A stretch of 64,000 bases of DNA from Sinomonas atrocyanea (GTDB taxonomy: Bacteria; Actinomycetota; Actinomycetes; Actinomycetales; Micrococcaceae), in the NCBI RefSeq assembly GCF_030811715.1, contig NZ_JAUSRH010000009.1, forward strand, positions 62,001 through 126,000, written 5' to 3'. A program made the translations under genes and the position numbers. Below, in pieces: positions 5,410 to 24,505 of this stretch. Every line of letters begins with the position of its first letter. The first letter of the stretch is position 1. The notes below the pieces were generated by a model. The model did not search any database, was not told the origin of the DNA, and saw only the letters and a list, made by a program, of their open reading frames with translations.

Positions 5410-5513
5410 AGGGACATGACCCCACAACGCAGGGACATGACCCCACAGCGCAGGGACATGACCCCACAGCCAGGAGGCCGGTTGAGGGGTCATGTCCCTA
5501 GGTTGAGGGGTCA
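5410..5513. repeat. Repeat family B array: three direct and two inverted 21-bp units
   Basis: AGGGACATGACCCCACA occurs at 5410, 5431 and 5452, an exact 21-bp period. The inverted unit TTGAGGGGTCATGTCCCT starts at 5482, and a shortened one (TTGAGGGGTCA) at 5503, again 21 bp apart. Units 3 and 4 form a 14-bp perfect stem. The array fills the gap between the convergent LOG and MFS genes, and the TGA stop of the MFS gene lies inside the last unit. It could act as a bidirectional terminator; the regular spacing is more than that requires. Confidence 0.9.
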
Positions 5514-8934: not shown

Positions 8935-9010
8935 CCCCTCAAGCTTGGGACATGACCCCTCAACGCTTGCACGGTTGAGGGGTCATATCCCTGTGGTGAG
9001 TGGTCACCCA
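8925..9010. repeat. Repeat family B array: two direct and two inverted 21-bp units
   Basis: AGGGACATGACCCCTCAA at 8925 and TGGGACATGACCCCTCAA at 8946 are 21 bp apart. Inverted units follow at 8975 (TTGAGGGGTCATATCCCT) and, degenerate, at 8996 (GTGAGTGGTCACCC), again exactly 21 bp apart. As at 5410, it lies between convergent genes. A lone family A copy (GGGCGTCGTCGTGCGCGG, 9038-9055) stands between it and the next gene. Confidence 0.88.
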
Positions 9011-10470: not shown

Positions 10471-11046
10471 ATGAAAGCACTGCCCGTCGAGCCGAGCAAC
10501 GCCCCCGTGGCGATCGGCTCCCGCATCCGCGCCGCCCGGCAGTCCCAGCGCATGACCATCGAGCAGGTCGCCGACGCGACCGGCCTCACCAAGGGCTTCC
10601 TCTCGCGCGTGGAACGGGACCTGACCTCGCCCTCGGTCGCCTCGCTCGTGACGCTGTGCCAGGTGCTCTCGCTCTCGATCGGGGACCTCTTCGCCCAGCC
10701 GGAGACCCACCTCACGCGGGCCGCCGAGGCGCCGAGGATCTCGCTCGGGGGAGAGGGCATCGTCGAGAGGCTGCTCACGGCCCGCTCCGAGCGCCGCGTG
10801 CAGGTCCTCCAGGCGGACATCGAGCCGCGCGGCGCCGGCGAGTCGGAGCTGTACGCGGTGGACTGCGACGTGGACGTGCTCCACGTGGTGCGCGGACGGA
10901 TCGACCTCATCATGGCCAACGAGCGCTACTCCCTCGCCGCCGGGGACACCCTGACGTTCCCTGGCCGCGAGCCCCACACGTGGGTCAACCCCTCCGACGA
11001 GCCCGCCCGGCTCCTCTGGGTCCTCGTGCCGGCCGCCTCCCGCTGA
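10471..11046 (+). CDS. XRE-family regulator with C-terminal cupin domain
   Basis: The 191-residue protein has an XRE helix-turn-helix (about residues 15-70: IGSRIRAARQSQRMTIEQVA, then FLSRVERDLTSPSVASL) and a cupin effector domain (about 115-188, with DVLHVVRGRIDL and FPGREPHTWVNP). HTH-cupin proteins such as PuuR and SutR repress or activate nitrogen, polyamine or sulfur pathways after binding a small molecule. The ATG at 10471 has a CAGGAGAGAG ribosome site. The gene stands alone; polyamine or guanidino metabolism (an agmatinase-like gene lies 3 kb away) is one possible target but nothing here proves it. Confidence 0.85.
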   Translation: MKALPVEPSNAPVAIGSRIRAARQSQRMTIEQVADATGLTKGFLSRVERDLTSPSVASLVTLCQVLSLSIGDLFAQPETHLTRAAEAPRISLGGEGIVERLLTARSERRVQVLQADIEPRGAGESELYAVDCDVDVLHVVRGRIDLIMANERYSLAAGDTLTFPGREPHTWVNPSDEPARLLWVLVPAASR

Positions 11047-11067: not shown

Positions 11068-11300
11068 TTTCGGGTACGCATCTCGTCGCGGTTTTCCCGT
11101 TTCGGGCACACGCCGCCGCCCGCCGCAGCGCCTCGCCCGCGGGAGGCGGACGACGCCGTCCGGTCGCCGAGCGCCGCCGGTGGCGCCCGGCGTCGTACGC
11201 GGGGCCGGAACCCCGCCGAGCCTCGTACCCGGAACGCCGAAAGGACGACGAGATGCGTACCCGGAATGCCGAAAGGGCGACGAGATGCGTACCCGAAGCG
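11068..11300. repeat. Repeat family C array: two direct, three inverted 32-bp units, with a family A copy inside
   Basis: GGGTACGCATCTCGTCGC begins at 11072 and its next, degenerate unit (GGGCAC) at 11104, 32 bp on. Inverted units with GTACCC at 11225, 11257 and 11289 are again exactly 32 bp apart; their body reads GACGAGATGCGTACCC. Between the two arms a family A element (ACGACGCCG at 11150, CGGCGTCGT at 11188) is nested. The array occupies most of the gap between the XRE and lipoprotein genes, which point the same way. Confidence 0.88.
11186..11217 (+). repeat. Extended family A element, intergenic reference copy
   Basis: CCCGGCGTCGTACGCGGGGC continues as CGGAACCCCGCC. The same extended string (with one or two substitutions) occurs inside the ThDP-enzyme gene at 15181 and, on the minus strand, inside cutC near 55700. 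This intergenic copy shows that the string is a dispersed element and not a protein motif. Confidence 0.7.
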
Positions 11301-11421
11301 GGGAGAGGGGGCGTGTGTATCGCTTCCGCAACGGCGCCTCCGGGCTCTGGTCAAACGGTTCGGGTGGTGGAACAGTGGGGCTCGAGCGCTCGGCATCCAT
11401 CGCGCTCGGGGGGATGAATCG

Positions 11422-12162
11422 ATGCACTCCGCACCTCTTCGGGGGCGCCGGTGGCCTGCCGCGGCCCACACCGTCGTGGCGCTGCTCGCCGCCGGCGTCC
11501 TCGTCGGGTGCTCCGCCGGACCGCCCGTCGTTCTGCCGCGGACGACGCCGGCCGGCCCCGCGCCGTCGTCGGCGTCACCGAGCGGGGCGTCGCCAAGCAG
11601 GGCGACCTCGGAGGCGACGCCGACGATCCACCGCTTCACTTCCCACCCGCTCTCCTTCCGGTACCCGTCCGACTGGTCCGTGGCGGCCGAGGTCCGGCCG
11701 ATCGGCCCGGGCGGGGAGGTGCGGGAGACGGCCACCGTCCTGGACGGCGCCGGGCGCCGGCTCCTCGACGTCTTCGTGAACTGGGCGCCGCAGGACGTGG
11801 GCACGGAGGTCACGCGCGCCGTCCTCGACGCCGAGCCCGTGCCCGGCCTCGGCTCGGCGGCCGTCCGCCCCGGCTACTACGCCTTCTATGCCGAGACCGA
11901 GGCAGGCGCCGTGGGCCCTGGCGGGGACCCGGTGGTCACCTACTCGATGACCCTCTCGCCGGGGCGCCCGCTGGACGGGCCGGCCCAGCGGCACGGCGGA
12001 CCGTTCGACAGCACGGTCCAGATCGCCGCGGGGTACTCGGTCGGGGCCGACGCGAGCGCCGACCTCATGACTTTCCGGGACGCGGCCGAGGCGCTCGGCT
12101 GGCTCGGCTCGGAGGACGGGCAGCGGCTGAAGGCGATCCTGATGAGCCTGACGGTGTACTAG
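11422..12162 (+). CDS. Secreted lipoprotein of unknown function
   Basis: The 246-residue protein has a lipoprotein signal: a basic start (LRGRRW), a hydrophobic core and the lipobox LVGC with Cys30 as the lipidated residue. A Ser/Pro/Ala-rich linker (about residues 31-65) leads to a globular domain starting TIHRFTSHPLSFRYPSDWSV, reminiscent of the PsbP/DUF1795-like folds often found behind such linkers. The function is unknown. The ATG at 11422 follows GGGGGG. It converges with the PAP2 gene with only 3 nt between the stops. Confidence 0.75.
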   Translation: MHSAPLRGRRWPAAAHTVVALLAAGVLVGCSAGPPVVLPRTTPAGPAPSSASPSGASPSRATSEATPTIHRFTSHPLSFRYPSDWSVAAEVRPIGPGGEVRETATVLDGAGRRLLDVFVNWAPQDVGTEVTRAVLDAEPVPGLGSAAVRPGYYAFYAETEAGAVGPGGDPVVTYSMTLSPGRPLDGPAQRHGGPFDSTVQIAAGYSVGADASADLMTFRDAAEALGWLGSEDGQRLKAILMSLTVY

Positions 12163-12165
12163 GTC

Positions 12166-13887
12166 CTAGCTGGCAGGCAGGACCACGAGTTCGGCCCTGC
12201 CGTCGGTGAAGAACTCGTCGCCGCTCGCGTTGTGCCCCATCTGCGGGTCGGTGCGCTGGAAGAGGGCGCCGGGGAGCCCGAGGGAGCCCGTGATGTACGC
12301 CCGCTCGGCGTCGACCTGGGGATCGATGTGGTGGGTGGGCAGCTTCGCGGAGCCGGCGAGCTCGATGCCGTCGTCGAAGCTGGCCGTCGCCTCCCACACG
12401 TCCCGCCCGTCCGGCGCGGTGAACCCGGTCCGCCAGATGCGGGTGTGGTGGCGCTGCCGCAGCGAGTTCGCGGCGGTGGCCTTCTGGAACGCGAGGGTCT
12501 CGGGCTGGGCGTCCATGAACGCCGGCGTGACGGGCGCCGAGGCGTACTGGCCGCCCTGCAGCCCCACCGCGAGGGCCCGCAGCGTGTTGGCGAGCGTCGA
12601 GGGATCGGCCTGCTGCCACCCGGCACGGGTGAAGGCCCGCACCACCTGGTCCTCGGTTCCGACGAAGACGAAGCTGGCAGGCTCCATCCGGCTCCCCGTG
12701 AGCGTCTCGCTGTAGAGCGGCAGCCGGGAGAACTCCGCGGCGTCCAGGGACGGGAGCGCCTGGGTGGCCGCCGGTGCCGTGTGCTCCTGCGGATGGACGA
12801 GGCCCGGCCCCAGCCCGACGGCGAAGACGAGCGCTGCCGCGGGCGCGACGGCGACGGCGCGGCTCGGGATGCCGGGGCGCCGCCGGACGGCGCCGAGGGG
12901 GAAGCGGTCGGCGATCTCGAGCGCGCCGATGACGGCCGCGAGGAGGGCGGTCCCCAGGAGCATGCCGCCCCAGACATCGGAGACGTAGTGCGCCCCGAGG
13001 TATACCCGGCTCATGGTCACCAGCAGGACCGCGAGGAGGTACGCCGACACCGTGAGCACGCGCGCCCACGTCGAGCGGACGGACCTGAAGACGAGGTAGG
13101 CGACGATCCCGAACACCACCGTGGCCCGCACCGCGTGGCCGCTCGGGAAGCTCGGGGAGGTCTCGGCCACGAGCGCGAGCGCGGAGTCCGGGCGGGGCCG
13201 CCCCCCGATGTCCTTTGCAGCGGTGAAGAGGAGCTCCTGCGCCGCCACGGTGCCCACCACGGCCGCGGCCAGGAGCCGCTCGCGCCGCCACCACAGGATG
13301 GCGGCGGCGAGCACGGTCATCACGAGGACCGACTGGAAGCTTCCGAGCGCGGTCGCGGCGGTGAACACGGCGGTCTCGCCGGGGGTGCGGACGGCGGGCA
13401 TGAGGTGGGCGATCCGGGCATCGACCTGGGTGAGCTGTCCGTGGGCCGCGACCGTGACGGCGAGCCGCAGGAAGGCAAGGAGGGGCACCGCCGCGACCAC
13501 GGCCGTCCCAGTGAGCCAGAGCCCAGTGGGGCGGTCGGTGCGGAACCTGTCCCGCAGCCAGGGGATCGGGCGCGCGTCCGTCGTCAGGGCCCGCACCACA
13601 TGCTCGTTGGTGCGCAGCCCGGACCAGGCCGAGGCGGCGAGGGAGCGGAGCATCGTCGAGGGCGCGGCGAGCGCCCGGAGGAGGGCGAGGACGAGGACGA
13701 GGAGGAAGACGACCTCGAGGAAGATCGCCGCGAGGAAGAGCATCGGCGACACGAACAGCGCGAGGGTCTGCACCGCGTAGAAGCACGCGACCATGAGCAC
13801 GAGCATGATGGCCGCCACCGCGAGGTGCCGTCCGGGTCCGCGCCGCACCGGGCCGCGGTCCACCAGGGTCTGACGGGTCGCTGTCAT
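12166..13887 (-). CDS. PAP2 phosphatase with LssY C-terminal domain
   Basis: The 573-residue integral membrane protein has the three PAP2 acid-phosphatase motifs: KDIGGRPRP (about residue 222), PSFPSGHAVRA (about 247) and SRVYLGAHYVSDVWGG (about 290), which supply the catalytic histidines. The last 180 residues match the LssY C-terminal domain. PAP2 membrane enzymes dephosphorylate lipid phosphates such as undecaprenyl pyrophosphate or phosphatidic acid at the outer face. The ATG at 13887 has a GAAGGA ribosome site. It is divergent from the agmatinase operon, so the tandem operator at 13965-13997 could affect both. Confidence 0.85.
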   Translation of the reverse strand: MTATRQTLVDRGPVRRGPGRHLAVAAIMLVLMVACFYAVQTLALFVSPMLFLAAIFLEVVFLLVLVLALLRALAAPSTMLRSLAASAWSGLRTNEHVVRALTTDARPIPWLRDRFRTDRPTGLWLTGTAVVAAVPLLAFLRLAVTVAAHGQLTQVDARIAHLMPAVRTPGETAVFTAATALGSFQSVLVMTVLAAAILWWRRERLLAAAVVGTVAAQELLFTAAKDIGGRPRPDSALALVAETSPSFPSGHAVRATVVFGIVAYLVFRSVRSTWARVLTVSAYLLAVLLVTMSRVYLGAHYVSDVWGGMLLGTALLAAVIGALEIADRFPLGAVRRRPGIPSRAVAVAPAAALVFAVGLGPGLVHPQEHTAPAATQALPSLDAAEFSRLPLYSETLTGSRMEPASFVFVGTEDQVVRAFTRAGWQQADPSTLANTLRALAVGLQGGQYASAPVTPAFMDAQPETLAFQKATAANSLRQRHHTRIWRTGFTAPDGRDVWEATASFDDGIELAGSAKLPTHHIDPQVDAERAYITGSLGLPGALFQRTDPQMGHNASGDEFFTDGRAELVVLPAS

Positions 13888-13964
13888 GCCCCGATCCTTC
13901 CCTGGGCGCTGGAAGGCCAATCTAGGAATCGCCCGTGAGGCGGCGGACCGGTTCCCGCGGGGTG

Positions 13965-13997
13965 GTTCGATGTAAACATCGTTCGATGTAAACATCG
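13965..13997. promoter_or_regulatory. Tandem operator: two copies of CGATGTAAACATCG
   Basis: The 14-mer CGATGTAAACATCG, a 6-bp inverted repeat around AA, occurs at 13968-13981 and 13984-13997; together with flanks it is a 16-bp unit (GTTCGATGTAAACATC) repeated exactly twice. It lies 66 nt before the agmatinase start and about 80 nt before the PAP2 start. Such a pair is a strong candidate for cooperative dimer binding. The cognate regulator is not adjacent; the palindrome type suits GntR or LacI families. Confidence 0.7.
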
Positions 13998-14062
13998 GGT
14001 GCATATGGGGCAACTTGTGCGGTAGGGTGGGGCCACGGTTCCCACACTATGGAAGGCCTGCC

Positions 14063-15055
14063 TTGGAAGAGCTGCGCATCGAGGAGAACGGCAACCTCGG
14101 TCCCATCGATTCGTCCCGGATCCCCCGCTTCGCGGGCGCGGCGACGTTCGCCCGCCTGCCCCGCCTCGACCAGGTGGCCCGCGCGGACGTGGCGATCGTG
14201 GGCGTCCCCTTCGACGCGGGCGTCTCCTACCGCCCGGGGGCCCGCTTCGGGGCCAACCACGTCCGCGAGGCCAGCCGCCTCCTGCGCCCATACAACCCCG
14301 CGCTGGACGCCTCGCCGTTCGCCAACGCCCAGGTGGCCGACGCCGGGGACATGGCGGTGAACCCGTTCAACATCCACGAGGCGATCGAGGCGATCCAGCA
14401 GGACGCGCTCGATCTGACGGCCGACGGCGCGCGCCTCCTCACGCTCGGCGGTGACCACACGATCGCCCTCCCGCTCCTGCGGGCCGCGTCCGAGCGGGCG
14501 GGGGAGCCCGTGGCGCTCCTGCACTTCGATGCCCACCTCGACACGTGGGACACCTATTTCGGCGCCGAGTACACGCATGGCACCCCCTTCCGCCGTGCGG
14601 TCGAGGAGGGCATCCTCGACACGGAGGCCATCTCCCACGTCGGCACCCGCGGCCCGCTGTACGGCAAGCGCGACCTCGAGGACGACCGCCGCTTCGGCTT
14701 CGGCATCGTCACCTCCTCGGACGTCTACTACCAGGGCGTGCGCGAGGTCGTCGCGAAGCTGCGGGACCGCATCGGCACCCGCCCGCTGTACGTCTCCGTG
14801 GACATCGACGTCCTCGACCCTGCCCACGCCCCAGGCACGGGCACCCCCGAGGCCGGCGGGATCACGAGCCGCGAGCTCCTCGAGATCCTGCGCGGCCTGC
14901 GCGGGCTCAACCTCGTCGGCGCCGACGTCGTCGAGGTCGCCCCCGCATACGACCACGCCGAGATCACCGCCGTCGCAGCGAGCCACGTCGCCTACGACCT
15001 CGTGACCCTCATGAGCGAGCTCCCCGCCCCGGCCGCCCCGCGGAGCGCCCGGTGA
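14063..15055 (+). CDS. speB: Agmatinase/ureohydrolase family enzyme
   Basis: The 330-residue protein has the ureohydrolase manganese motifs GGDHTIALP (about residue 128), [12 protein letters not shown] (about 151) and [16 protein letters not shown] (about 244). These enzymes hydrolyse guanidino compounds (agmatine, guanidinobutyrate, guanidinopropionate) to an amine and urea. The start is TTG 14063, chosen for its GGAAGG ribosome site 7 nt upstream and the family-like N-terminus [13 protein letters not shown]; an upstream in-frame GTG (14027) lacks one. Its stop overlaps the next gene's GTG (GTGA), so the two are translationally coupled. Pairing with a ThDP enzyme makes plain polyamine synthesis less likely than catabolism of a guanidino compound. 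Confidence 0.85.
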
Positions 15056-16875
15056 GCCCCGTCGAGTCGCCCTGGACGGGCGAGGCCCAGGCGCTCCAGG
15101 CCGCCGGGGCCCGGGAGCTGCAGGCCCGGGAGCTGCAGGCGCGCCAGGCGGCCGGCGCGGCGGGGGCGGAGGGCGAGGAGGCCGGCGTCGTGCGCGGGGC
15201 CGGACCCCGCAACGGCGGCGACCTCGTGGTCGAGACGCTCGAGGCGCTCGGCGCGAAGACCGTGTTCGGCATCCCCGGGCAGCACGCGCTGGGCCTGTTC
15301 GACGCGATGGGCCGGGGGAGCCTCTCCTTCGTCTCGAGCCGGGTCGAGAACAACTCGGCCTTCGCGGCGGACGGCTACTCGCGCGCCACCGGCGAGGTGG
15401 GGGTCCTGTTCCTCTCGACCGGCCCGGGCGCCCTGACCTCCCTCGCGGGCCTGCAGGAGGCCTACGCGACCGGCGTGCCGATGGTCGTCATCGCGAGCCA
15501 GATCCCCCTCGAGGGGCTCGGCGCGCGGCGCAAGGGCATGCTGCACCAGCTCGACGACCAGAAGGCCTCGGCCGCGAACGTCACGAAGAGCCAGCGCCTC
15601 ATCCAGCACGCCTCCGGCATCCCCTCGGCCATCCAGGACGCCTGGACGGACGCGATCTCCTCCCCGCAGGGGCCCGTGTGGGTCGAGATCCCGCAGAACG
15701 TGCTGCTCGATCCCGTCATGGTCCCGCCCGTCGAGGATGCCCTCGCCGAGGCCGCGGACAACCCGCCGCGGGTCGAGCTGGTCCGCGAGGCGGTCAACTG
15801 GCTGCGCGGGGCTCGCCGCCCGGCGATCATCGCCGGCGGCGGGACCCGGCGCGGGCACGCCGAGGCGTCCCTGCGCCGCCTCGCCGAGCAGCTGCGCGCC
15901 CCCGTGATCTGCACCCCCGGCGGCAAGGGCGCCTTCCCGTGGGAGCACCCGCTCTCGCTCCAGTCGTGGATCGAGGACCGGCACATGACCGAGGTCCTCG
16001 AGGACGCGGACGTGCTCGTGGTGGTCGGATCCTCCCTCGGTGAGGTCACCTCCAACTACTTCACGTTCGAGCCCCGCGGCCGGATCATCCAGATCGACGC
16101 CGAGCCGCGCGTGCTCGAGTCCAACCGGCCCGGCCTGGGCATCCGCGCCGACGCCGGGCAGGCGCTGGCCGCGCTCGAGACCGCGCTTGCCGCGCCTCCC
16201 GCCGGCACCGCCGCCTCCGCGGGCCCCGGCGCCGCCCCGGACTGGCACGGGAGGACGCCGGAGGAGGTCGTGGCCGAGGCGCTCGGGAAGGTCCGGGCGC
16301 GGCTTGAGTCCCAGGACCTGGCCAAGGAGCTGGCCTTCATGGCGGACGTCCGCGCCGCCGTGCCGGACGACATGCAGACCTTCTGGGACATGACGATCTC
16401 CGCCTACTGGGCCTGGAGCTGCTGGGACTCCCGCGAGGGGCAGTTCCACTCGGCCCAGGGCGCCGGCGGCCTCGGCTTCGGCTTCCCCGCGGCGATCGGC
16501 GGGGCCGTGGGCCTGGCCACGCTCGGGCGGCCGGCCCGGGTGCTGGCGGTCTCCGGCGACGGCTCCGCGATGTACTCGATCGCCGAGCTCGCCACCGCGC
16601 GCCAGCACAACGTGCCCGTCACCTGGCTCATCGTGGACGACGGCGGCTACGGGATCCTGCGCGAGTACATGGTCGACGCGTTCGGCAAGGCCACCGCGAC
16701 CGAGCTCGCCCGCCCCGACTTCGTGGCCCTCGCCGAGTCCTTCGGCGTGCCCGCCCGGCGCGTGCCGGTCGAGGGCGTGCGGCAGGCGCTCGAGGAGAGC
16801 CTCGCCGCGGACGGGCCCAACGTCGTCGTGGTCGAGACGCTCCTGAAGATGTTCGCCCCGACCCACCTCGGCTGA
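15052..16875 (+). CDS. Thiamine-diphosphate-dependent enzyme (acetolactate synthase/decarboxylase family)
   Basis: The 607-residue protein has the three-domain ThDP fold: the catalytic glutamate in [15 protein letters not shown] (Glu98), a central Rossmann domain, and the cofactor motif starting SGDGSAMYS (about residue 501) and ending IVDDGGYG, where the usual Asn-Asn is Asp-Asp. It is coupled to the ureohydrolase by a GTGA overlap, so it may act on the oxo-acid or aldehyde formed from the same substrate. Residues 13-53 are an odd Ala/Glu/Gln extension ([11 protein letters not shown]) in which residues 44-53, [10 protein letters not shown], are encoded by a copy of repeat family A. The reaction is not determined. 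Confidence 0.8.
15181..15210 (+). repeat. Family A element inside the ThDP-enzyme gene
   Basis: GCCGGCGTCGTGCGCGGGGC then CGGACCCCGC matches the intergenic copy at 11186 closely. It is read in frame as [10 protein letters not shown] in the poorly conserved N-terminal extension of the ThDP enzyme. Confidence 0.65.
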
Positions 16876-16915
16876 GGGGGAGCGCCGCCCACACCACCCT
16901 TCCCCGCCTTCCTCA

Positions 16916-16948
16916 CTGGGGGTCACGTTCTGGGAACGTGACCCCCAG
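16916..16948. terminator. Perfect hairpin after the ureohydrolase/ThDP operon
   Basis: CTGGGGGTCACGTTC (16916-16930), loop TGG, exact complement (16934-16948): a 15-bp stem 40 nt after the ThDP gene. Its core GGGGTCACGTTC resembles the family B core GGGGTCATGTCC, so it may be a related single-pair element. A family A half copy (CGCACGACGCCGG, 16961-16973) follows. Confidence 0.75.
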
Positions 16949-17012
16949 AGGCGTCTCCGGCGCACGACGCCGGCCTCCCGCCCCGTGTTACTAAGGTCAC
17001 CTACCGAATTAG

Positions 17013-17053
17013 TTTGCACAAGCAACCATCAGGCGTATAGTTGTTGCAAGCAA
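17013..17053 (+). promoter_or_regulatory. MarR promoter with two overlapping operator-like palindromes
   Basis: TTTGCA (17013-17018) and TATAGT (17036-17041) are spaced 17 nt and form a likely promoter. TTGC-ACAA-GCAA (17014-17025) covers the -35 and TTGC-AA-GCAA (17044-17053) lies just after the -10. Both are inverted repeats with the same half-site. They are well placed for repression by the adjacent MarR protein, which would control itself and the exporter downstream. Confidence 0.72.
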
Positions 17054-17073
17054 TCAATTGAGGAGGGGCGGCC

Positions 17074-17571
17074 ATGCCTGTCGATCCCGGAACGGCGCGG
17101 GAACTCATCCATCGCGTCTTCGACCTGCAGCGGGTGGTCCGCTGCCTGTCGACCTCCGAGCTCAAGCACGGAGAGCTCGGCGTCGCATCGCAGGGCGTCC
17201 TGCGGGTGATCGGCGAGCACGGAGGCCGCGCCGTCGACCTCGCCGGGAAGCTCGGCGTGAGCGCCCCGGTGCTCAGCCGGCACCTCGCCGAGCTCGAGGG
17301 CCTGGGGCTCGTGGAGCGCCACCGCGACCCGGAGGACCGGCGCGCGCAGCTCGTCGGGCTCACCGACCGCGGCTGCCGGGTCCTCGAGGAGATCGAGGAG
17401 CACCGCATCCAGCGCCTCCAGAGCTACCTCGCCGACTGGGACGAGGGCCGCGCGGCGGCCGCCGTCGCCGCGATCGGCCAGCTCTCCGACGCCCTGCGCT
17501 CCGGCTCCGGCCACCGCCCCGCCCCGACCACCACATCGACCGACAAGGAGGAAGCCCTTGCAGCCCGCTGA
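17074..17571 (+). CDS. MarR-family transcriptional regulator
   Basis: The 165-residue protein has the MarR winged helix (about residues 30-105: LGVASQGVLRVIGEHGG, then LSRHLAELEGLGLVERHRDPEDRR) flanked by dimerisation helices. The ATG at 17074 follows AGGAGG. Its 3' end overlaps by 14 nt the start of a DHA2-family exporter, the usual arrangement in which MarR represses its own operon and is released by a toxic or phenolic ligand. The TTGC...GCAA palindromes over the promoter are probably its sites. Confidence 0.88.
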   Translation: MPVDPGTARELIHRVFDLQRVVRCLSTSELKHGELGVASQGVLRVIGEHGGRAVDLAGKLGVSAPVLSRHLAELEGLGLVERHRDPEDRRAQLVGLTDRGCRVLEEIEEHRIQRLQSYLADWDEGRAAAAVAAIGQLSDALRSGSGHRPAPTTTSTDKEEALAAR

Positions 17572-19654
17572 CGCGGCGGCTCCGCAGATGAGCCACAAGC
17601 AGATCCTCGAGGCCCTCACCGGCCTCCTGGCAGCATTCTTCACCGCAATCCTCTCCTCGACGATCGTGGCGAACGCGCTGCCGACCATCATGGCGGACCT
17701 CAAGGGCACGCAGACCGACTTCGCCTGGGTCATCACGGCAGCGCTGCTCGCCAACGCCGTCACCACCCCGATCTGGGGCAAGCTCGCGGACCTGTTCAAC
17801 AAGAAGCTCCTGACGCAGCTGAACATCGTGGTCTTCGTGGCCGGGTCGGTCATGGCCGGCTTCTCCCAGAACGTCCCCTGGCTCCTCACCGCCCGCGTGA
17901 TCCAGGGCATCGGCATGGGCGGCCTCACCGCGATGGCCATGGCGATCATCGGCACGATGATCCCGCCGCGCGACCGCGGCAAGTACAACGGCTACATGGG
18001 CGCCGTCATGGCCGTCGGCACCGCGGGCGGCCCGCTCCTCGGCGGCTTCATCGTCGACTCCTCGCTCGGCTGGCGCTGGACGTTCTTCGTGTGCGTCCCG
18101 CTCGCCGTCATCGCCCTGTTCCTCATCCAGGCCACGCTGAAGATCAAGCACGTCAAGCGCGTCGCGAAGATCGACTGGCTCGGCACGCTGCTCCTGACCG
18201 CCTCGGTGAGCACCCTGCTCATCTGGGTCTCGTTCGCGGGCCAGCCGGACTACTACGACTGGTGGAGCTGGCAGACGGCGGTCATGGTCGGCGGCTCCGC
18301 CCTCGGCCTGATCCTCCTGGTCGTCGTGGAGTCCCGCGTGGCCATGCCGATCATCCCGCTCAAGATCGTCGCCAACCGCACCACCGCGCTCAGCATCATC
18401 GCCTCCGCCGCGATCGGCGTCTCGATGTTCGCCTCGTCCTCGTTCATCGGCCAGTACTACCAGGTGGCCCGCGGCGCCACCCCGACCGAGGCCGGGCTCC
18501 TGACCCTGCCGATGATCGCCGGCAACTTCCTCGGCTCCGTGGTCTCGGGCCAGCTCATCTCGCGCTTCGGCAAGTGGAAGCGGTTCCTGATCCTCGGCTC
18601 GCTGCTGATCGTCGCCGGCATGGGGCTGCTCGGGACGATCGACCACAGCACGGACCTCGCCCGCGCCGGCGTCTACACGTTCGTCCTCGGCCTCGGCCTG
18701 GGCATGACGATGCAGAACCTCGTCCTCGGCGTCCAGAACACCGTCCAGGCCAAGGACATCGGCACCGCGAGCGCCACCGTCGCGTTCTTCCGCTCCGTCT
18801 TCGGCGCGGTCGGCGTCTCGGTCCTCGGCGCCGTGCTCAACAACCGCTCCGAGGAGCTCATCACCGACGGCCTCGCGGCCAAGGGCATCCACGCCCCGGC
18901 CGGCAGCGGCGGCGCGAGCCTGGACCTGACGGACATGCCGGCACCGATCGCGGACATCGTCCGCGGCGCCTTCGGCGACGCCTCCGCGCGGTCGTTCCTC
19001 ATCGCCGGGATCGTCGGCATCGTGGCGTTCATCGCGATCCTCTTCATCAAGGAGGTGCCGCTGCGCCGCACCGTGGACATCGTCAAGCCCGCCCAGGCCG
19101 GCGGCGCTCCCGGCGCGGACCCGGCCACCGCCGCGATCCCGTCCGTCGCCCCGATCGGAGCGCACGACGCCGCGGCCTCGCCCGAGGCGACCGGCTCGCC
19201 GTCGTCCGTGGCCGCCGCAGACGAGGGGGAGCCCGCCCCGGCCGGCCGGCCGTCCGCCTCGGCCGCGCGCCGGGCAGCGATCCGCGAGGTCCTCGCCGGC
19301 GCCGAGGGGGAGGGCACGGCCCTGGACACCGAGCTGCAGCTGCTGCTCGCCGAGGCCGTCCCGGCCGCGGGGCAGGCCCCCGCACCGGCCGCGGCAGGCA
19401 CGCTCGAGGCGCTGCAGGAGACCCAACGCATCCTGGCGCGCCAGCAGGCCCAGCTCGCCTCGCTCATGGAACGACTCGCCGACCAGCTCGACGAGCAGCA
19501 GCGGCTCGCCGCCGAGCAGGGCGAGACCGCGAGGGCGCAGGGGGCCACAGCGGCCCAGCTCGCCCAGCTCCAGCAGGAGCTCGCCGCCGAGCGGCAGCTG
19601 CAGAAGGAGGCGGCGCTGTACCTCGCCACGCGGGGGCGCCACAGCGCCAGCTGA
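17558..19654 (+). CDS. DHA2 (EmrB/QacA) drug exporter with a long coiled-coil tail
   Basis: The 698-residue protein has about 14 membrane segments in residues 15-497, with the MFS motifs KLADLFNKK and the DHA2 antiporter stretch GIGMGGLTAMAMAIIG. It is expected to export cationic or phenolic drugs against protons. The remaining 200 residues are unusual: an Ala/Pro-rich linker, then a Gln/Ala/Leu/Glu heptad region (about 616-690) predicted to be a cytoplasmic coiled coil. Start is TTG 17558, preferred over ATG 17588 because AAGGAGG stands 6 nt before it. A family A repeat copy (19160-19175) codes AHDAA within the linker. A strong terminator follows. Confidence 0.85.
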   Translation: MQPADAAAPQMSHKQILEALTGLLAAFFTAILSSTIVANALPTIMADLKGTQTDFAWVITAALLANAVTTPIWGKLADLFNKKLLTQLNIVVFVAGSVMAGFSQNVPWLLTARVIQGIGMGGLTAMAMAIIGTMIPPRDRGKYNGYMGAVMAVGTAGGPLLGGFIVDSSLGWRWTFFVCVPLAVIALFLIQATLKIKHVKRVAKIDWLGTLLLTASVSTLLIWVSFAGQPDYYDWWSWQTAVMVGGSALGLILLVVVESRVAMPIIPLKIVANRTTALSIIASAAIGVSMFASSSFIGQYYQVARGATPTEAGLLTLPMIAGNFLGSVVSGQLISRFGKWKRFLILGSLLIVAGMGLLGTIDHSTDLARAGVYTFVLGLGLGMTMQNLVLGVQNTVQAKDIGTASATVAFFRSVFGAVGVSVLGAVLNNRSEELITDGLAAKGIHAPAGSGGASLDLTDMPAPIADIVRGAFGDASARSFLIAGIVGIVAFIAILFIKEVPLRRTVDIVKPAQAGGAPGADPATAAIPSVAPIGAHDAAASPEATGSPSSVAAADEGEPAPAGRPSASAARRAAIREVLAGAEGEGTALDTELQLLLAEAVPAAGQAPAPAAAGTLEALQETQRILARQQAQLASLMERLADQLDEQQRLAAEQGETARAQGATAAQLAQLQQELAAERQLQKEAALYLATRGRHSAS
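19160..19175. repeat. Family A core inside the exporter's tail
   Basis: GCGCACGACGCCGCGG matches the family A arm except for the last bases and is read as AHDAA in the variable linker of the DHA2 exporter. A single core could be chance; its position in an unconserved linker is why it is listed. Confidence 0.4.
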
Positions 19655-19672
19655 CCGGCGCCGGAACCACTC

Positions 19673-19709
19673 AGGCAGCCTGCGGACAGAGCACGTCCGC
19701 AGGCTGCCT
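19673..19709 (+). terminator. Strong rho-independent-type hairpin after the DHA2 exporter
   Basis: AGGCAGCCTGCGGAC (19673-19687), loop AGAGCAC, exact complement (19695-19709): a 15-bp perfect stem 18 nt after the exporter stop. It separates the MarR-exporter operon from the ABC operon. Confidence 0.85.
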
Positions 19710-19804
19710 GATTAGTCCTCAGGGTGGATGCCCGCGGGCGCGCGCGAGGCCTACGCTGGACACGCCCCGCTCGGCACCGGCAGGGCCCGACCGCAAGGAC
19801 CTCG

Positions 19805-21568
19805 ATGCTCCTCACTCTGATCCGGCGCTACGGCGCCCGCTACTGGCCCTGGATCGCCGCCGTGGTGGTCTTCCAGCTCGCGACGACGATGGCCACCCTG
19901 TACCTGCCCAGCATCAACGCCCAGATCATCGACCAGGGCGTCGCCAAGGGGGACACGGACTACATCTGGCGCCAGGGCGCCCTCATGCTGGGCATCGCGT
20001 TCGTCCAGGTCCTCACCGCCATCGCGGCCGTCTACTTCGGCTCCAGGACCGCCATGGCGTTCGGCCGCGACCTGCGCCAGGGCGTGTTCCGCAGGGTCAC
20101 CTCGTACTCCGCCCAGGACCTCCAGCGCTTCGGTGCGCCCACGCTCATCACGCGCGGCACCAATGACGTCCAGCAGGTCCAGATGGTCATGCTCATGGGG
20201 CTGAACTTCATGGTCTCGGCCCCCATCATGTGCGTGGGCGGCATCATCATGGCGCTCAACGAGGACGCCGGCCTCTCCTGGCTCGTGTGGGTCTCGGTGG
20301 GCGTGCTGTTCGCCGTCGTCGGATTCCTCGTCTACCTGCTCATGCCGCTCTTCCGCAAGATGCAGTCCCGGATCGACTCGATCAACGGCGTGCTGCGCGA
20401 GCAGATCATCGGCATCCGCGTGGTCCGCGCGTTCGTGCGCGAGCGGTTCGAGGAGGAGCGGTTCGCGGACGCCAACCGGGCCCTGACGGACATCTCACTC
20501 AAGGTCGGGCAGATCTTCGTGCTGATGTTCCCGATCATCATGCTGCTGCTGCAGGCGGCCACCGCGGCCGTGCTGTTCTTCGGCGGCCACCGCGTCGACT
20601 CCGGGGACATGCAGATCGGCTCCCTCACCGCGTTCATGCAGTACCTGCTGCAGATCCTCATGGCCGTCATGATGGGCACCTTCATGGCCATGATGATCCC
20701 CCGCGCCACCGTGTGCGCCGACCGCATCGGCGAGGTCCTCGGCGTCGAGCCCTCCATGGCCGAGCCCGCCGAGCCCGCCGTGCCCGAGAAGGCCGAGGGC
20801 GTCGTCGAGTTCCGCAACGTCTCGTTCGCCTACCCGGGCGCCGAGGCCGCCGTGCTGAGCGGGATCTCCTTCACGGCTCGCCCCGGGCAGACCGTGGCCG
20901 TCATCGGATCGACGGGCTCAGGCAAGACGACCCTGCTGAACCTCATCCCGCGCCTCTACGACGCCGCCGAGGGCGAGGTCCTGCTCGACGGGGTGCCGCT
21001 GGCCCGGATGCCGCGGCGCGAGATCACCTCCCGCGTGGCGATGGTCCCGCAGCGGCCCTACCTGTTCTCCGGCACCATCGCGCACAACCTGCGCTTCGGC
21101 AAGGAGACTGCGTCCGACGACGAGCTGTGGGAGGCGCTCGAGGTCGCACAGGGCGAGGAGTTCGTCCGCGCCAAGGCGAAGGGGCTCGAGTCGCCGATCT
21201 CGCAGGGCGGCACGAACGTCTCCGGCGGCCAGCGGCAGCGGCTCTGCATCGCCCGCGCCCTCGTGGCCCAGCCCAAGGTGTACCTCTTCGACGACTCGTT
21301 CTCGGCCCTCGACGTCGCCACCGAGGCGCGGCTGCGGCGCGCGCTCAGGGACCGCATGCACGGGGCGACCATGATCGTCGTCGCCCAGCGGGTCTCCACC
21401 ATCATGGGCGCGGACCAGATCCTCGTCCTCGACGGCGGGAAGATCGTGGACCGCGGCACGCACGAGGAGCTGCTGGAGACCTCGCCGACGTACCAGGAGA
21501 TCGTCCAGTCGCAGATCAGCGCCGAAGAAGTCCAGAGCGTTGCGGGAGCCACGGGGGAGCAGGCATGA
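19805..21568 (+). CDS. ABC exporter half-transporter, degenerate-site subunit
   Basis: The 587-residue protein has six membrane helices (residues 15-310) and an ATPase domain with Walker A GSTGSGKTT (about 368), signature VSGGQRQRL (about 472) and Walker B LFDDSFSALD (about 492). The catalytic Glu after Walker B is replaced by Asp, as in the degenerate member of heterodimeric multidrug exporters (TmrA, TM287, LmrC types). The partner gene overlaps by 4 nt (ATGA). An AAGGA ribosome site precedes ATG 19805. Likely role: export of lipids or drugs; the substrate is unknown. Confidence 0.88.
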   Translation: MLLTLIRRYGARYWPWIAAVVVFQLATTMATLYLPSINAQIIDQGVAKGDTDYIWRQGALMLGIAFVQVLTAIAAVYFGSRTAMAFGRDLRQGVFRRVTSYSAQDLQRFGAPTLITRGTNDVQQVQMVMLMGLNFMVSAPIMCVGGIIMALNEDAGLSWLVWVSVGVLFAVVGFLVYLLMPLFRKMQSRIDSINGVLREQIIGIRVVRAFVRERFEEERFADANRALTDISLKVGQIFVLMFPIIMLLLQAATAAVLFFGGHRVDSGDMQIGSLTAFMQYLLQILMAVMMGTFMAMMIPRATVCADRIGEVLGVEPSMAEPAEPAVPEKAEGVVEFRNVSFAYPGAEAAVLSGISFTARPGQTVAVIGSTGSGKTTLLNLIPRLYDAAEGEVLLDGVPLARMPRREITSRVAMVPQRPYLFSGTIAHNLRFGKETASDDELWEALEVAQGEEFVRAKAKGLESPISQGGTNVSGGQRQRLCIARALVAQPKVYLFDDSFSALDVATEARLRRALRDRMHGATMIVVAQRVSTIMGADQILVLDGGKIVDRGTHEELLETSPTYQEIVQSQISAEEVQSVAGATGEQA

Positions 21569-23607
21569 GCCAGGACAGCAAGGGCGCCGCGGTGCCGGCC
21601 GTCGATCCGGAGGAGGCCGAGGCCGAGGAGGCCGCGGCCCCCGCCGGCGGCCGCGGGGGCGGAGGCTTCGGGCAGCAGATGCCCACCCAGAAGGCCAAGG
21701 ACTTCCGGGGGACGGCCCAGCGGCTCATCGGCCTGATCCGCTCGGAGATGGGCTGGATGGCCGTGGTGGTCGTCTTCATCATCGTCTCGGTGGTCCTGTC
21801 CGTGATCGCCCCGAAGATCCTCGGCAAGGCCATGGACGTCATCTTCGCGGGCGTGATCGGCAAGCAGATGCCCGCCGGGGTGACGAAGGACCAGGTCATC
21901 CAGGGCTTGCGCGCCCAGGGGCAGAACAACTTCGCGGACATGCTCTCGGCCATGAACCTCGTGCCGGGGCGGGGGATCGACTTCAACGAGCTGACGCTCC
22001 TCATCGCGGTCATCCTGATCATGTACTTCGTGGCGAGCCTGTTCATGTGGGCGCAGGGGTTCATCCTCAACCGCGTCGTGATGCGGATCGTCTACCGCCT
22101 CCGCCGGGACGTGGAGGCCAAGCTCAACAGGCTGCCGCTCGGCTACTTCGACACCCGGCAGCGCGGGGACCTGCTCTCCCGGGTCACGAACGACGTCGAC
22201 AACGTCCAGCAGGCGCTCCAGCAGGCGTTCTCGCAGCTGCTCTCCTCGATCCTCCAGGTGCTGGGCATCATCGTGATGATGTTCATCGTCTCGTGGGAGC
22301 TGGCCCTCATCGCCCTTGTCGCCCTGCCGCTCTCCGCGGTCGTGACGGGCGTGATCGGCACGCGCAGCCAGAAGCTGTTCAAGGCGCAGTGGAGGGACAC
22401 CGGCATTCTCAATGGGCACATCGAGGAGTCCTTCTCGGGCCACGAGCTGGCCATCCTGTTCGGCCGCGAGAAGGAGATGGTCGAGGGCTTCGACGGCAAG
22501 AACGAGGACCTCTACCGGGCGTCCTTCGGCGCCCAGTTCGTCTCGGGGATGATGTTCCCGATCATGAACTGGATCAGCTACCTCGCGTACGTGGGGATCG
22601 CCGTGGTCGGCGGCCTGCGGGTGGCGGCCGGGCAGATGACCCTCGGCGACGCGACGGCGTTCATCCAGTACTCGCGGCAGTTCACGCAGCCGCTCGGGCA
22701 GATCGCCGGCATGGCCAACATGCTGCAGTCCGGCGTGGCCTCGGCCGAGCGCGTGTTCGAGCTGCTCGACGCGGAGGAGCAGGAGCCCGAGACGGCCACG
22801 CGGCATCTGCCGGCGGCCACGGACGGGCACGTGGACTTCGAGCACGTCTCGTTCTCTTACTCGCCCGACAAGCCGCTCATCGAGGACCTGTCCCTGACCG
22901 CCGAGCCGGGCCACACGGTGGCGATTGTCGGCCCGACGGGCGCCGGCAAGACCACGCTCGTGAACCTCGTCATGCGGTTCTACGAGATCTCCTCCGGCCG
23001 GATCCTCTTCGACGGCGTGGACATCCGCGATCTCTCCCGGGACGAGCTGCGCTCCAAGGTGGGCATGGTGCTCCAGGACGCGTGGCTGTTCGGCGGCACG
23101 ATCTACGACAACATCCGCTACGGAAACCTCGACGCCACCGAGGAGCAGGTCATGGCCGCGGCGAGGGCCACGTATGTGGACCGGTTCGTGCGGTCCCTCC
23201 CCGACGGCTACAACACGGTGATCGACGAGGAGGGCACCAACATCGCTGCCGGCGAGAAGCAGCTCATCACGATCGCCCGCGCGTTCGTGGCCAACCCCTC
23301 GCTGCTCATCCTGGACGAGGCCACGTCCTCCGTGGACACCCGGACCGAGCTGCTCGTGCAGAAGGCGATGGCCGCGCTGCGGACCGACCGGACCTCGTTC
23401 GTGATCGCGCACCGGCTTTCGACGATCCGGGACGCCGACACGATCCTCGTCATGGAGAACGGAAAGATCGTCGAGCAGGGCCGGCACGAGGAACTCCTCG
23501 AGCGCGGGGGCGTCTACCACCGGCTCTACATGAGCCAGTTCGCCGGGGGGATCGACGTCGAGGCGGAGGAGGCGGCGGCCTCAGCCGGTGCGACCCCCCG
23601 CACCTGA
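21565..23607 (+). CDS. ABC exporter half-transporter, catalytic-site subunit
   Basis: The 680-residue protein has an acidic and Gly-rich N-terminal tail, six membrane helices (about residues 60-370) and an ATPase with Walker A GPTGAGKTT (about 456), a non-canonical signature IAAGEKQLI (about 562) and a canonical Walker B LILDEATSSVD (about 580). The normal Walker sites here pair with the normal VSGGQ of the upstream subunit, while this odd signature pairs with its Asp-containing site: one active and one degenerate site, as expected for a heterodimer. The extra loop between TM1 and TM2 (about residues 105-155) is long. Ends just before the family C array. Confidence 0.88.
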   Translation: MSQDSKGAAVPAVDPEEAEAEEAAAPAGGRGGGGFGQQMPTQKAKDFRGTAQRLIGLIRSEMGWMAVVVVFIIVSVVLSVIAPKILGKAMDVIFAGVIGKQMPAGVTKDQVIQGLRAQGQNNFADMLSAMNLVPGRGIDFNELTLLIAVILIMYFVASLFMWAQGFILNRVVMRIVYRLRRDVEAKLNRLPLGYFDTRQRGDLLSRVTNDVDNVQQALQQAFSQLLSSILQVLGIIVMMFIVSWELALIALVALPLSAVVTGVIGTRSQKLFKAQWRDTGILNGHIEESFSGHELAILFGREKEMVEGFDGKNEDLYRASFGAQFVSGMMFPIMNWISYLAYVGIAVVGGLRVAAGQMTLGDATAFIQYSRQFTQPLGQIAGMANMLQSGVASAERVFELLDAEEQEPETATRHLPAATDGHVDFEHVSFSYSPDKPLIEDLSLTAEPGHTVAIVGPTGAGKTTLVNLVMRFYEISSGRILFDGVDIRDLSRDELRSKVGMVLQDAWLFGGTIYDNIRYGNLDATEEQVMAAARATYVDRFVRSLPDGYNTVIDEEGTNIAAGEKQLITIARAFVANPSLLILDEATSSVDTRTELLVQKAMAALRTDRTSFVIAHRLSTIRDADTILVMENGKIVEQGRHEELLERGGVYHRLYMSQFAGGIDVEAEEAAASAGATPRT

Positions 23608-23640
23608 CTAACCTCCCCCACCCACCCCGCCCCACCCCCG

Positions 23641-23734
23641 TTTCGGGTACGCATCTCGTCGCCTTTTCGCCCTTCCGGGTACGAGCGTGCGTACCCGGAA
23701 CGCGTTGTGGGCGACGAGATGCGTACCCGAAAAG
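23641..23734. repeat. Repeat family C array: two direct and two inverted 32-bp units
   Basis: GGGTAC occurs at 23645 and 23677 and GTACCC at 23691 and 23723, so both pairs have an exact 32-bp period. The first unit reads TTTCGGGTACGCATCTCGTC and the last its near-complement (GACGAGATGCGTACCCGAAA). The whole array is a large palindrome centred near 23684. It fills the gap between the convergent ABC exporter and SDR genes and could terminate both. Confidence 0.9.
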
Positions 23735-23761: not shown

Positions 23762-24505
23762 CTAGACGGCGGTGTAGCCGCCGTCGACGGCGAGCACGGC
23801 CCCGACCACGAACGATGCCGCGTCCGAGGCGAGGAACGCGATGGCCTCCGCGATCTCCTCGGGCCTCGCGAGCCGGCCGATGGGCTGCCTCTCAGCCATC
23901 GAGGCGCGCACGGCCTCCGGCAGGCCGGCGACGAGGGGCGTGTCGGCGTAGCCGGGTGCAACGGCATTGACCCGGATCCCGCGTGGGGCGTACGTCGCGG
24001 CCGTGGACCGTGTCAGGTTCGCCACGGCGGCCTTCGCCGCGGAGTAGGAGGTGCTGTTGGGCTGCCCGACCGTGCCGAGGATCGAGGAGACGTTCACCAC
24101 CGCGCCCCGCCCGGCGGCCACCATGTGCCGCAGGGCATGCTTGCCGCACAGTGCCACCCCGGTCAGGTCGATCTCGATCACGCGTCGCCATGCGGCGACA
24201 TCGAGTTCGTGCAGCGGTGCCTTCGGCTCGGCGATGCCCGCGTTGGCCACGAGCACGTCGAGCGAGCCGAACTCCGCCGCGGCGCGGTCCATGAGCGCGG
24301 CCACCGAGTCCTCGTCGGTCACGTCCGTGGGGACGAACAGCGCCCGGTGGCCCTCGTCGCGGAGGCCGCGCGCGACGTCGTGCGCGCCCTCCGCGACGTC
24401 CCCGATCACCACGGCGGCCCCTCGGGAGGCGAGCAGGCGCGCCGTAGCCTCCCCGATGCCCGACGCCGCGCCGGTCACCACCGCGACCCGCTGGTCGAAC
24501 TGCAC
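23762..24505 (-). CDS. Short-chain dehydrogenase/reductase, last gene of the catabolic cluster
   Basis: The 247-residue protein is a classical SDR: TGAASGIGEA (NAD(P) binding, about residues 10-19), NAG (about 87) and the catalytic Ser...YSAAK (about residues 137-156). An acidic residue at the end of the second strand (IGDVAEG) suggests NAD preference. Start is GTG 24505, whose first base is shared with the TAG of the upstream SDR (TAGTG), so the two are coupled. As part of the cluster it probably oxidises a hydroxyl of a ring intermediate; the substrate is unknown. Confidence 0.85.
   Translation of the reverse strand: MQFDQRVAVVTGAASGIGEATARLLASRGAAVVIGDVAEGAHDVARGLRDEGHRALFVPTDVTDEDSVAALMDRAAAEFGSLDVLVANAGIAEPKAPLHELDVAAWRRVIEIDLTGVALCGKHALRHMVAAGRGAVVNVSSILGTVGQPNSTSYSAAKAAVANLTRSTAATYAPRGIRVNAVAPGYADTPLVAGLPEAVRASMAERQPIGRLARPEEIAEAIAFLASDAASFVVGAVLAVDGGYTAV

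Follow-up and report, generated by a model that had tools for sequence, protein, structure and literature searches.

The window, a 64,000-nucleotide stretch of the Sinomonas atrocyanea genome (hereafter the home genome), carries two arrays of a short repeat, family C, at 3′ ends of genes (Table 1). Re-reading both sites bore out the coordinates and the 32-bp period reported in an earlier note, and five matches to the 18-mer of the repeat at ≤3 mismatches, against 0.20 expected, place it far above chance in the window. Each element is built from inward-facing arms: direct copies, a centre, then inverted copies. Two direct copies per site had been counted; their spacing is indeed exactly 32 bp, but the full direct 18-mer occurs once per site (11072 and 23645), the second copy holding little beyond the core (at 11100, TTTCGGGCAC; at 23673, TTCCGGGTAC). 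The two or three inverted copies resolve into two full units plus an inner core at site 1, and one full unit plus an inner core at site 2. Site 1 has a tandem context, the next gene called by our home-made codon model being 11476–12162 (+). The inner cores of site 2 lie 27 bp apart (23673 to 23700), the shortest step of a 27 + 10.5k series.

Table 1. Family C and B arrays in the window, with the genes that border the C sites
Feature	Position	Strand	Remarks
Family B array 1	5411–5498		GGGACATGACCCC three times with an exact 21-bp period, followed by a single inverted copy
Family B array 2	8926–8991		direct pair with 21-bp spacing and a single inverted copy
Gene upstream of site 1	10471–11046	+	3′ end ~20 bp before site 1; home-made codon model
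Site 1, C unit 1, left arm	11068–11089	+	core TTTCGGGTAC 11068–11077; 18-mer 11072–11089
Site 1, degenerate second core, left arm	11100–11109	+	TTTCGGGCAC; 32 bp past first core
Site 1, centre between arms	11110–11224		inner-core distance 11100 to 11234 = 134 bp
Site 1, inner core, right arm	11225–11234	−	5′ end at 11234
Site 1, C unit, right arm	11245–11266	−	18-mer 11245–11262, one mismatch
Site 1, outermost C unit, right arm	11277–11298	−	18-mer 11277–11294 exact; core variant CTTCGGGTAC read off sequence
Gene ending just 5′ of site 2	22111–23607	+	ABC transporter by inspection only
Site 2, C unit 1, left arm	23641–23662	+	18-mer 23645–23662
Site 2, inner core, left arm	23673–23682	+	TTCCGGGTAC; 32 bp past first core
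Site 2, inner core, right arm	23691–23700	−	5′ end at 23700
Site 2, C unit, right arm	23711–23732	−	18-mer 23711–23728
Convergent gene ending just 3′ of site 2	23762–24505	−	called gene

The window also holds two arrays of family B. The B period is 21 bp, or two helical turns, in 60/60 spacings (from loci fetched with a pattern allowing 16–22 bp), with one 19-bp pair seen besides; the C period of 31–32 bp is about three turns. Inverted B arms are also helically phased, on few data, and the B context count leaves out three of 25 clusters. The proposal that one plan in both families reflects one mechanism gains support from the whole-turn periods, the phased arms and the paralogous nuclease genes framed by both. 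Contrary to the earlier claim, the two sequences are not wholly unrelated, because the opposite-strand B core GTTGAGGGGTC has GTTNNGGGKWC in common with the C core GTTTCGGGTAC.

Family C across the genus

Further copies, anticipated elsewhere in the genome, are present: 85 18-mers at ≤2 mismatches, with none for the reversed control. They are not leftovers of a single duplicated segment, an origin raised earlier, because clustering by flanking sequence divides 156 loci from 7 genomes into 66 site clusters. Genus-wide only the 11-bp core GTTTCGGGTAC is fixed; the other positions of the unit vary by lineage, as dialects whose period matches the reported 32 bp in some lineages and is mainly 31 bp in others. 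Where loci were picked regardless of spacing, within-arm spacing is 32 bp in 65/65 cases in the home genome and in 55 in G013, which has one further spacing of 40 bp. Across eight genome sets, 520/528 spacings of the 28–36 bp range are 31 or 32 bp, most loci of G004, G005, G006, G007 and G009 having been found with spacing-bound patterns (29–35 bp; 32 for G005). G001 and G007 mix 31- and 32-bp spacings (66/24 and 30/22, respectively), and exceptions comprise 33-bp pairs in G001 and G006 plus eight spacings of 15, 17 or 26 bp in G006. The G001 loci were drawn from one core variant and one listed place, and the G006 loci leave out places on contigs C52 and C60.

Between the home genome and G013, spacers diverge by 29.7%, outer flanks by 17.7% and cores by 6.1% (an unequal comparison at L018, where the G013 stretch is shorter). 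Spacers thus change more than outer flanks, and cores far less, which argues that spacer length, not sequence, is kept. A permutation test supports in situ duplication of host flank in G009 and G004 (p = 0.0025 and 0.0005); the same test was negative in G013 (p = 0.25) and gave p = 0.036 in the home genome, a value inflated by arms whose outer core escaped the pattern. Indels inside arrays were also counted from alignments, omitting on grounds of length a pair from G013 and another from S. atrocyanea, but the counts proved too noisy to serve as evidence.

The arrays are extragenic and lie mostly just downstream of stop codons, between convergent or tandem genes. Divergent contexts account for 2/37, 3/36, 1/27 and 0/13 clusters in four genome sets, counted without clusters ≤300 bp from a locus end and without four that have no called gene on both sides (one home, one G013, two G009). 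Loci become scarcer away from dnaA, the farthest quarter holding 7/78. In Sinomonas, a soil bacterium, the repeat thus belongs to a set of dozens of gene-end arrays, whose sites tend to share one face of the DNA helix.

Helical register between arms

Counting each site, and each residue modulo the unit length, once only leaves 60 distances between inverted arms. These are phased: their periodogram peaks at 10.50 bp, with R = 0.66 and a Rayleigh p of 5e-12. Sorted modulo 31.5, the distances fall 23, 23 and 14 to the three 10.5-bp classes; two control distances gave no phasing (R = 0.13 each), and the result is robust to four core definitions. A follow-up set of G001, G006 and G007, analysed after a phase of ~6 had been noted, returned a phase of 5.9 (n = 32, R = 0.59); this set is partly independent, 27/32 distances lying at sites common to the first four genomes, and the five distances at new sites gave R = 0.72 (p = 0.07). 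Arm distances that track the helical repeat point to arrays being read by a protein at the level of DNA rather than as RNA.

We consider an RNA-level role improbable, in which the repeats would be 3′ UTR elements or REP-like bidirectional terminators whose arms pair into long hairpins. Their position past stop codons and their inverted arms would suit such a role, and the centres partly fold more stably than shuffles (z < −2 in 20/60, median −1.1); pairing, however, requires neither a fixed core at all loci nor a 10.5-bp register of the arms. Some arrays come after an ordinary hairpin-type terminator (L217, L225 and L227, by inspection), and at window site 2 the spacers of the two arms are not complementary. 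An Rfam search of 13 loci yielded three tRNAs only, and no known RNA family for the repeats. A hairpin within the single unit was dropped too because, by inspection, only the 32-bp dialect has complementary bases before the core. A likeness to SigB-type promoters was likewise set aside, their spacing being different.

A nuclease gene framed by arrays

A gene for an AbiEi-like/Vsr-type nuclease has C cores on both sides in 11/11 genomes with an orthologue, inward-facing in 10; these are not 11 independent events, because all are orthologous copies of a single framing locus. The orthologue is absent from exactly four of 15 genomes (G003, G008, G012 and G014; best match 30–36%), and these four have 0–1 exact two-unit arrays (0, 0, 0 and 1, respectively). 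The p values for this co-absence (0.0037–0.0088) ignore phylogeny and rest on about three lineages. G002 has the gene, yet one exact two-unit array, and the gene is frameshifted in G005 and G011, both still array-rich; its reading frame is intact in the home genome and G013. Nuclease type agrees with array dialect in 11/11 genomes, better than with the species tree. The home nuclease and its closest copies (at least 78%) come from the four genomes whose dialect is ATCTCGTCGC with a 32-bp period; the 56–60% group comes from genomes in which the period is mainly 31 bp, among them G002 and G004, two that the species tree splits from the remaining 31-bp genomes (support 100). Being alike in presence, absence and sequence type, gene and arrays suggest a previously undescribed nuclease-and-repeat partnership; a search of open-access literature returned nothing on these repeats, nor on such a nuclease with repeats.

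Thirty of the nuclease matches were fetched. The alignment of 23 members omits the frameshifted C-type copies of G005 and G011 as well as L344, L349, L359, L360, L361 (the same gene as L340) and L364. AbiEi models match 22/23 members (E ≤ 0.01, best 5.7e-16), the C copy weakly (1.2e-4 over residues 103–143). MTES_1575 matches 12/23 (E ≤ 0.01) and DUF559 6/23, the C copy reaching 20.9 bits against MTES_1575, a weak match beside the curated cut-off of 38.2. NCBIfam models matched 0/23 members, and solved structures gave no match to the nuclease profile. Some paralogues have separate arrays around them, family B among these. Tandem arrays occupy both flanks at 6/18 loci outside the C-type versus 1/145 control genes (p = 5e-6, loci not independent); adding L332, a locus retrieved on account of its B arrays and a source of bias in a first count, makes this 7/19. 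The two-flank threshold is missed by 12/19 non-C-type and 8/11 C-type loci. The control initially comprised 20 window genes and was extended to 145; one of the stretches supplying control genes and background was S. mesophila locus L069, which was compared with home loci and stands outside all array counts. No relatives of the B-framed nuclease were confirmed in viral contigs.

The arrays might instead bind a host DNA protein of gyrase, nucleoid or roadblock type at transcription-unit ends, the nuclease gene being a passenger between two of them. Helical phasing needs merely some DNA-binding protein, and the sites' preference for convergent or tandem 3′ ends, their rarity between divergent genes and their thinning away from dnaA all sit well with this; we nevertheless think it unlikely, as it leaves the co-absence, the dialect match and the paralogue-framing arrays unexplained. 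No nucleoid protein was identified as an array partner. Still less do we expect the elements to be transposon ends, with the nuclease as transposase and the short elements as MITEs. Ends of Mu, Tn7 and IS21 have inward-facing arms of repeated binding sites, and here too inward-facing direct-repeat arms surround a gene, some elements have their arms nearly joined, and G002 and G012 are without any unit at the L030 site. Against this very improbable reading, the sites look inherited rather than jumping: 27/29 fetched home loci and both window sites have a matching array locus in G013 (the other two had none in the fetched set), 3/33 G013 loci match none of the home genome, and 9/66 site clusters are common to home/G013 and G001, G006, G007 and G009. 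No transposase was identified, and no target duplication was seen by eye at L030, the one site inspected. Viral contigs searched with C and B patterns, plasmids with one C and one B query, and phages with one C query gave no matches.

Proposed working and known counterparts

Phasing, core conservation, gene-end position, nuclease framing, co-absence and dialect match can be read directly from the sequences. The interpretation that we somewhat favour is that family C consists of asymmetric 11-bp protein-binding sites at gene 3′ ends, their likeliest partner being the nuclease encoded between C arrays. What we infer is binding, cutting, subsequent repair and whatever advantage the host may gain. 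The AbiEi-like part would bind the core, and several nuclease copies would assemble on a single helix face, 31–32 bp (three turns) apart within an arm and in 10.5-bp register across the centre. Close to bound arrays, DNA might then be nicked or cut by the C-terminal Vsr/DUF559-type domain, and repair would duplicate whole units, at times with adjacent host sequence, and may copy units between loci. Such cutting and repair would explain how units are gained and lost, why dialects go with the nuclease and why genomes lacking it are poor in arrays. A broader proposal, to which we give an even chance, is that Sinomonas, and possibly a wider group, has a novel class of nuclease systems that frame themselves. 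Each AbiEi–Vsr paralogue would have its own dialect, in direct-repeat arrays with helical phasing that it builds and homogenises at gene ends. Such a system would parallel REP/RAYT with unrelated components, and its arrays would be read through cooperative assembly on a single face of the helix.

It is difficult to recognise helical register in sequence alone; here it is plain in unaligned distances, which makes part of the protein geometry predictable ahead of protein study. If the nuclease is the reader, a partnership of enzyme and repeat like that of RAYTs would have arisen here independently. Joint dialect change of dispersed short repeats would then be open to direct test: the genus contains paralogues that differ in dialect, and genomes without the gene are natural controls.

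AbiEi proteins are type IV antitoxin-like winged-helix regulators that bind cooperatively to repeats. The AbiEi-like part matched in the nuclease family differs in being fused to a nuclease and in its candidate sites, dozens of dispersed arrays. DNA uptake sequences of Neisseriaceae often form inverted pairs, in copy numbers far above those of the Sinomonas arrays. Both have a short conserved core with lineage dialects, described for uptake sequences in passages of PMC3630211; Sinomonas differs in its far fewer copies, tandem helical arrays and framed nuclease. The C-terminal domain of the candidate nuclease weakly matches MTES_1575/DUF559. Passages of PMC3710099 assign MTES_1575 to the Vsr fold and describe it as a fusion in a HEPN protein, with no repeat association in those passages, whereas the Sinomonas nuclease gene is framed by arrays.

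The best reading, on the comparisons made here, is a nuclease–repeat system that would work like RAYT/REP but is unrelated to it. REP/BIME elements, in passages of PMC2817692 and PMC3733652, are dispersed extragenic repeats lying mostly 3′ of genes, with the enzyme gene framed by inverted copies and several families having their own enzymes; the extragenic, mainly 3′ arrays and inward-facing cores around the nuclease gene resemble this. RAYTs, however, are Y1, IS200/IS605-like transposases and the Sinomonas enzyme is AbiEi-like/Vsr-type; a RAYT partner, suggested in the earlier note, is absent, with Y1 (PF01797) in 0/15 genus genomes by a search that finds it in 5/14 control genomes. The C unit is not palindromic and forms inward-facing direct-repeat arms with helical register, whereas REPs alternate. 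With RNA parameters, the folding energies of five units, taken from four genomes, range from −2.4 to −8.2 kcal/mol, versus −20.5 for an E. coli REP. A REP-type GTAG/CGTC end tag was not found; the 32-bp unit has CGTC internally, a motif not common to the 31-bp dialect units examined (by inspection).

At two loci, L023 and L033, other genes without a Pfam match lie between the arms. By tblastn over the fetched loci, the L023 gene occurs only in the home genome and G005, and the L033 gene only in the home genome, G005 and G013.

Family C units and their gene context

An 18-mer from the family C unit of this genome matches its Sinomonas source 85 times at two mismatches or fewer (47 and 38 by strand), against 0 matches for the reversed-sequence control, bearing out the further copies anticipated in an earlier note. 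That note had also described two direct copies followed by inverted ones at an exact 32-bp period; units do lie exactly 32 bp apart at both window sites (see table), but the second direct copy retains little beyond the core. In a genome collection that may omit very near relatives, the 28 stretches from named species that carry the exact two-unit pattern belong to S. atrocyanea (27) and S. mesophila (one).

C elements run from direct units through a centre to inverted units, so both arms face inwards, with one arm only visible in some elements under the patterns used. The majority sit directly beyond a stop codon, and one (L231) has an apparently genuine upstream position. Flanking genes, classified with a home-made gene caller whose individual calls may err, are convergent, tandem and divergent in 20, 15 and 2 cases in the source genome (n = 37), 19, 14 and 3 in genus genome G013 (n = 36), 16, 10 and 1 in G009 (n = 27) and 6, 7 and 0 in G004 (n = 13); background gene pairs of the window give 11, 36 and 11 (n = 58). 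Array loci are rare far from dnaA on the G013, G009 and G004 chromosomes, with 7 of 78 lying in the most distant quarter (KS p 0.17, 0.013 and 0.034, respectively); these counts are not independent because some loci are shared between genomes. GC-rich hairpins whose stems are of the ACGACGGCGGG...CCCGCCGTCGT type recur between genes, standing alone or within C elements (in the centres of several) and occurring in array-poor genomes too; they are probably a separate terminator-like repeat. A further 21-bp repeat in the window, of the CAGCCGTACCCGCCGCAGGGG type, probably lies in coding sequence.

Repeat features of the window and motif upstream of nuclease genes
Feature	Position	Remark
Family C, site 1	11068-11300	
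Family C, site 2	23641-23734	
Family B arrays	5411-5498 and 8926-8991	period exactly 21 bp
GC-rich hairpins	964-1029 and 49829-49886	
CAGCCGTACCCGCCGCAGGGG-type repeat	32785-32973	
TGTGGATAA	5′ of nuclease paralogues	e.g. L332, L350, L352, L362, L363, L366

Dialects and growth of arrays at shared sites

Four of 15 genus genomes are rich in the 18-mer and the rest have 0–1 copies, but the 12-mer GTTTCGGGTACG is found in 14 of the 15 (1 to 82 copies), and a two-core pattern occurs in 12 of the 15 and in none of 380 genomes from the family's other genera. Only the first 11 bp of the unit are invariant across the genus; in one dialect group the unit measures 32 bp and carries ATCTCGTCGC, and in the other genomes it is mainly 31 bp, with a different sequence beyond the core. 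The fetched G013 array loci match 27 of 29 fetched loci of the source genome plus both window sites, 3 of 33 having no counterpart there. Flanks are shared with source loci at 7 of 27 loci in G009 and 4 of 12 in G004, some on one side only. The 156 loci of seven genomes fall into 66 site clusters, nine of them common to the source/G013 pair and G001/G006/G007/G009, and one present in all seven. This sharing indicates that many arrays are old at their positions; the dialect is nevertheless lineage-specific at almost every array. Divergence between the source genome and G013 is 6.1% in cores, 29.7% in spacers, 20.9% in centres and 17.7% in outer flanks.

Unit number differs between these two genomes at 13 of 27 compared loci, the difference at L018 deriving from a shorter stretch. 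Beside some arrays (L019, L230 and L237), host sequence has seemingly been copied into spacers, stop codon included. Tested over arrays, host-flank copying gives p = 0.0025 in G009, 0.0005 in G004 and 0.036 in the source genome, the last inflated by two arms with a missed outer core; the same test is negative in G013 (p = 0.25). L235 of G009 is an apparent tandem duplicate of a whole element (++++--++++---), on which basis whole elements may be copied as well as units. At L023 the source genome has a gene between the arms whereas G013 (L177) has only about 130 bp, a contrast that points to gene gain in, or loss from, the element centre.

Helical register of C arrays

Within arms, 65 of 65 spacings are 32 bp in the source genome, and G013 has 55 at 32 bp and one at 40. 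Across eight genome sets, 31 or 32 bp accounts for 520 of 528 spacings of 28–36 bp; since the search patterns bounded spacing (29–35 bp for G004, G006, G007 and G009 loci, fixed at 32 for G005), only narrowness inside 29–35 bp counts for those genomes. Besides multiples of a unit, G006 has eight off-range spacings of 15, 17 or 26 bp. One of its C arrays (L302, G006:C155) has a 33-bp period over four spacings, outside the usual register.

Between arms, distances from inner direct to inner inverted core cluster at about 27, 37, 48, 58, 69, 80, 90 and 101 bp, and so on. In the first four genomes, those below 160 bp (n = 58) give R = 0.75 at 10.5 bp, with a best period of 10.45. A phase of about 6 was recorded before the analysis of G001, G006 and G007, which gave a mean phase of 5.9 (n = 32, R = 0.59, best period 10.35); as 27 of these 32 distances are at sites common to the first genomes (R = 0.63), the set offers support and not a fully independent test, the five at new sites giving R = 0.72 (p = 0.07). 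The main result comes from the deduplicated set, in which each combination of site and residue modulo a unit counts once: the 60 remaining distances give R = 0.66 (p = 5e-12), and their periodogram peaks at 10.50 bp. Unit gain or loss does not explain this register, because all three classes modulo 31.5 are filled (23, 23 and 14). Control distances give R = 0.13 in the same test, and the peak stays at 10.45–10.50 under four core definitions. The phasing of C arrays is firm; it is predicted by protein assembly on one DNA face, not by RNA pairing.

A candidate nuclease and its paralogues

Screening genes between arms yielded a weak match to a Vsr-type REase profile for a 313-aa protein (L016, by inspection neighboured by mfd and deoC), and likewise for a gene framed by arrays of family B, the second repeat family. 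Close orthologues of the L016 protein occur in 11 of 15 genus genomes, of which 10 have at least four exact two-unit arrays and G002 one. The other genomes (G003, G008, G012 and G014; three lineages in a tree from four gene pieces) carry only 30–36% paralogues and have 0, 0, 0 and 1 such arrays. C cores lie on both sides of the nuclease gene at 11 of 11 loci, oriented inwards at 10; G011 has one inverted-strand core per side. In the nuclease tree, a 32-bp group (source genome and G013, to which G005 and G011 belong by identity) stands apart from one with 31-bp units that includes G002 and G004, although the species tree places these two away from the remaining 31-bp genomes (support 100). Such agreement between enzyme and dialect, running counter to the species phylogeny, is the strongest indication that the two are functionally linked. 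The gene is frameshifted in G005 and G011, so the need for it may not be continuous.

AbiEi models match 22 of 23 family members (the C copy weakly); the MTES_1575 profile matches 12, DUF559 and a RecX helix domain six each, and Pfam AbiEi_4 two. Joining a DNA-binding head to a nuclease tail would suit a protein able both to read and to process its own repeats, and the candidate is likely the reader of C arrays. Most likely, this is a nuclease–repeat partnership that resembles REP/RAYT in its working yet is not a member: REP/RAYT has a Y1 enzyme and a palindromic unit, whereas the 15 Sinomonas genomes searched lack the former and the family C unit is non-palindromic. We infer DNA cutting, repair-driven copying and an effect on transcription ends. 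In the parts of the open-access literature consulted (including PMC2817692, PMC3733652 and PMC3710099), we found no earlier account of these repeats or of such a pairing.

Each genome has 1–7 nuclease-matching stretches. Tandem arrays (one period, at least 26 matches out of 30) occupy both flanks at 10 of 30 nuclease loci. Leaving out L332, a locus chosen for its B arrays, gives 9 of 29, and 6 of 18 when C-type loci are set aside too; control genes drawn from array-rich loci and the window give 1 of 145. The paralogue in G001 has GTTGYGGGGTC at 22 bp, seven per side; those in G005 and G012 are framed by family B at 21 bp, those in G006 and G008 have on one side GTTCAGGGGTC with a 32-bp period and, by inspection, related repeats opposite, and those in G003, G009 and G014 have other units. 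GTTNNGGGKWC is common to several paralogue units and absent from that of G009. At fetched loci, family B spacings are 21 bp in 60 of 60 cases; its elements are convergent in 16 of 22 classified, and inner distances are phased on few data (R = 0.97, n = 7; R = 0.79, n = 6). The exact two-unit B pattern occurs in 7 of 15 genus genomes, being absent from G001, G002 and G006–G011.

The DnaA-box-like word TGTGGATAA lies upstream of nuclease genes in 24 of 30 cases, compared with 4 occurrences in 284,911 background bases; it may link paralogue expression to DnaA or serve as part of the promoter. Eleven copies are at exactly −48 from the called start, and the others at −14 to −56.
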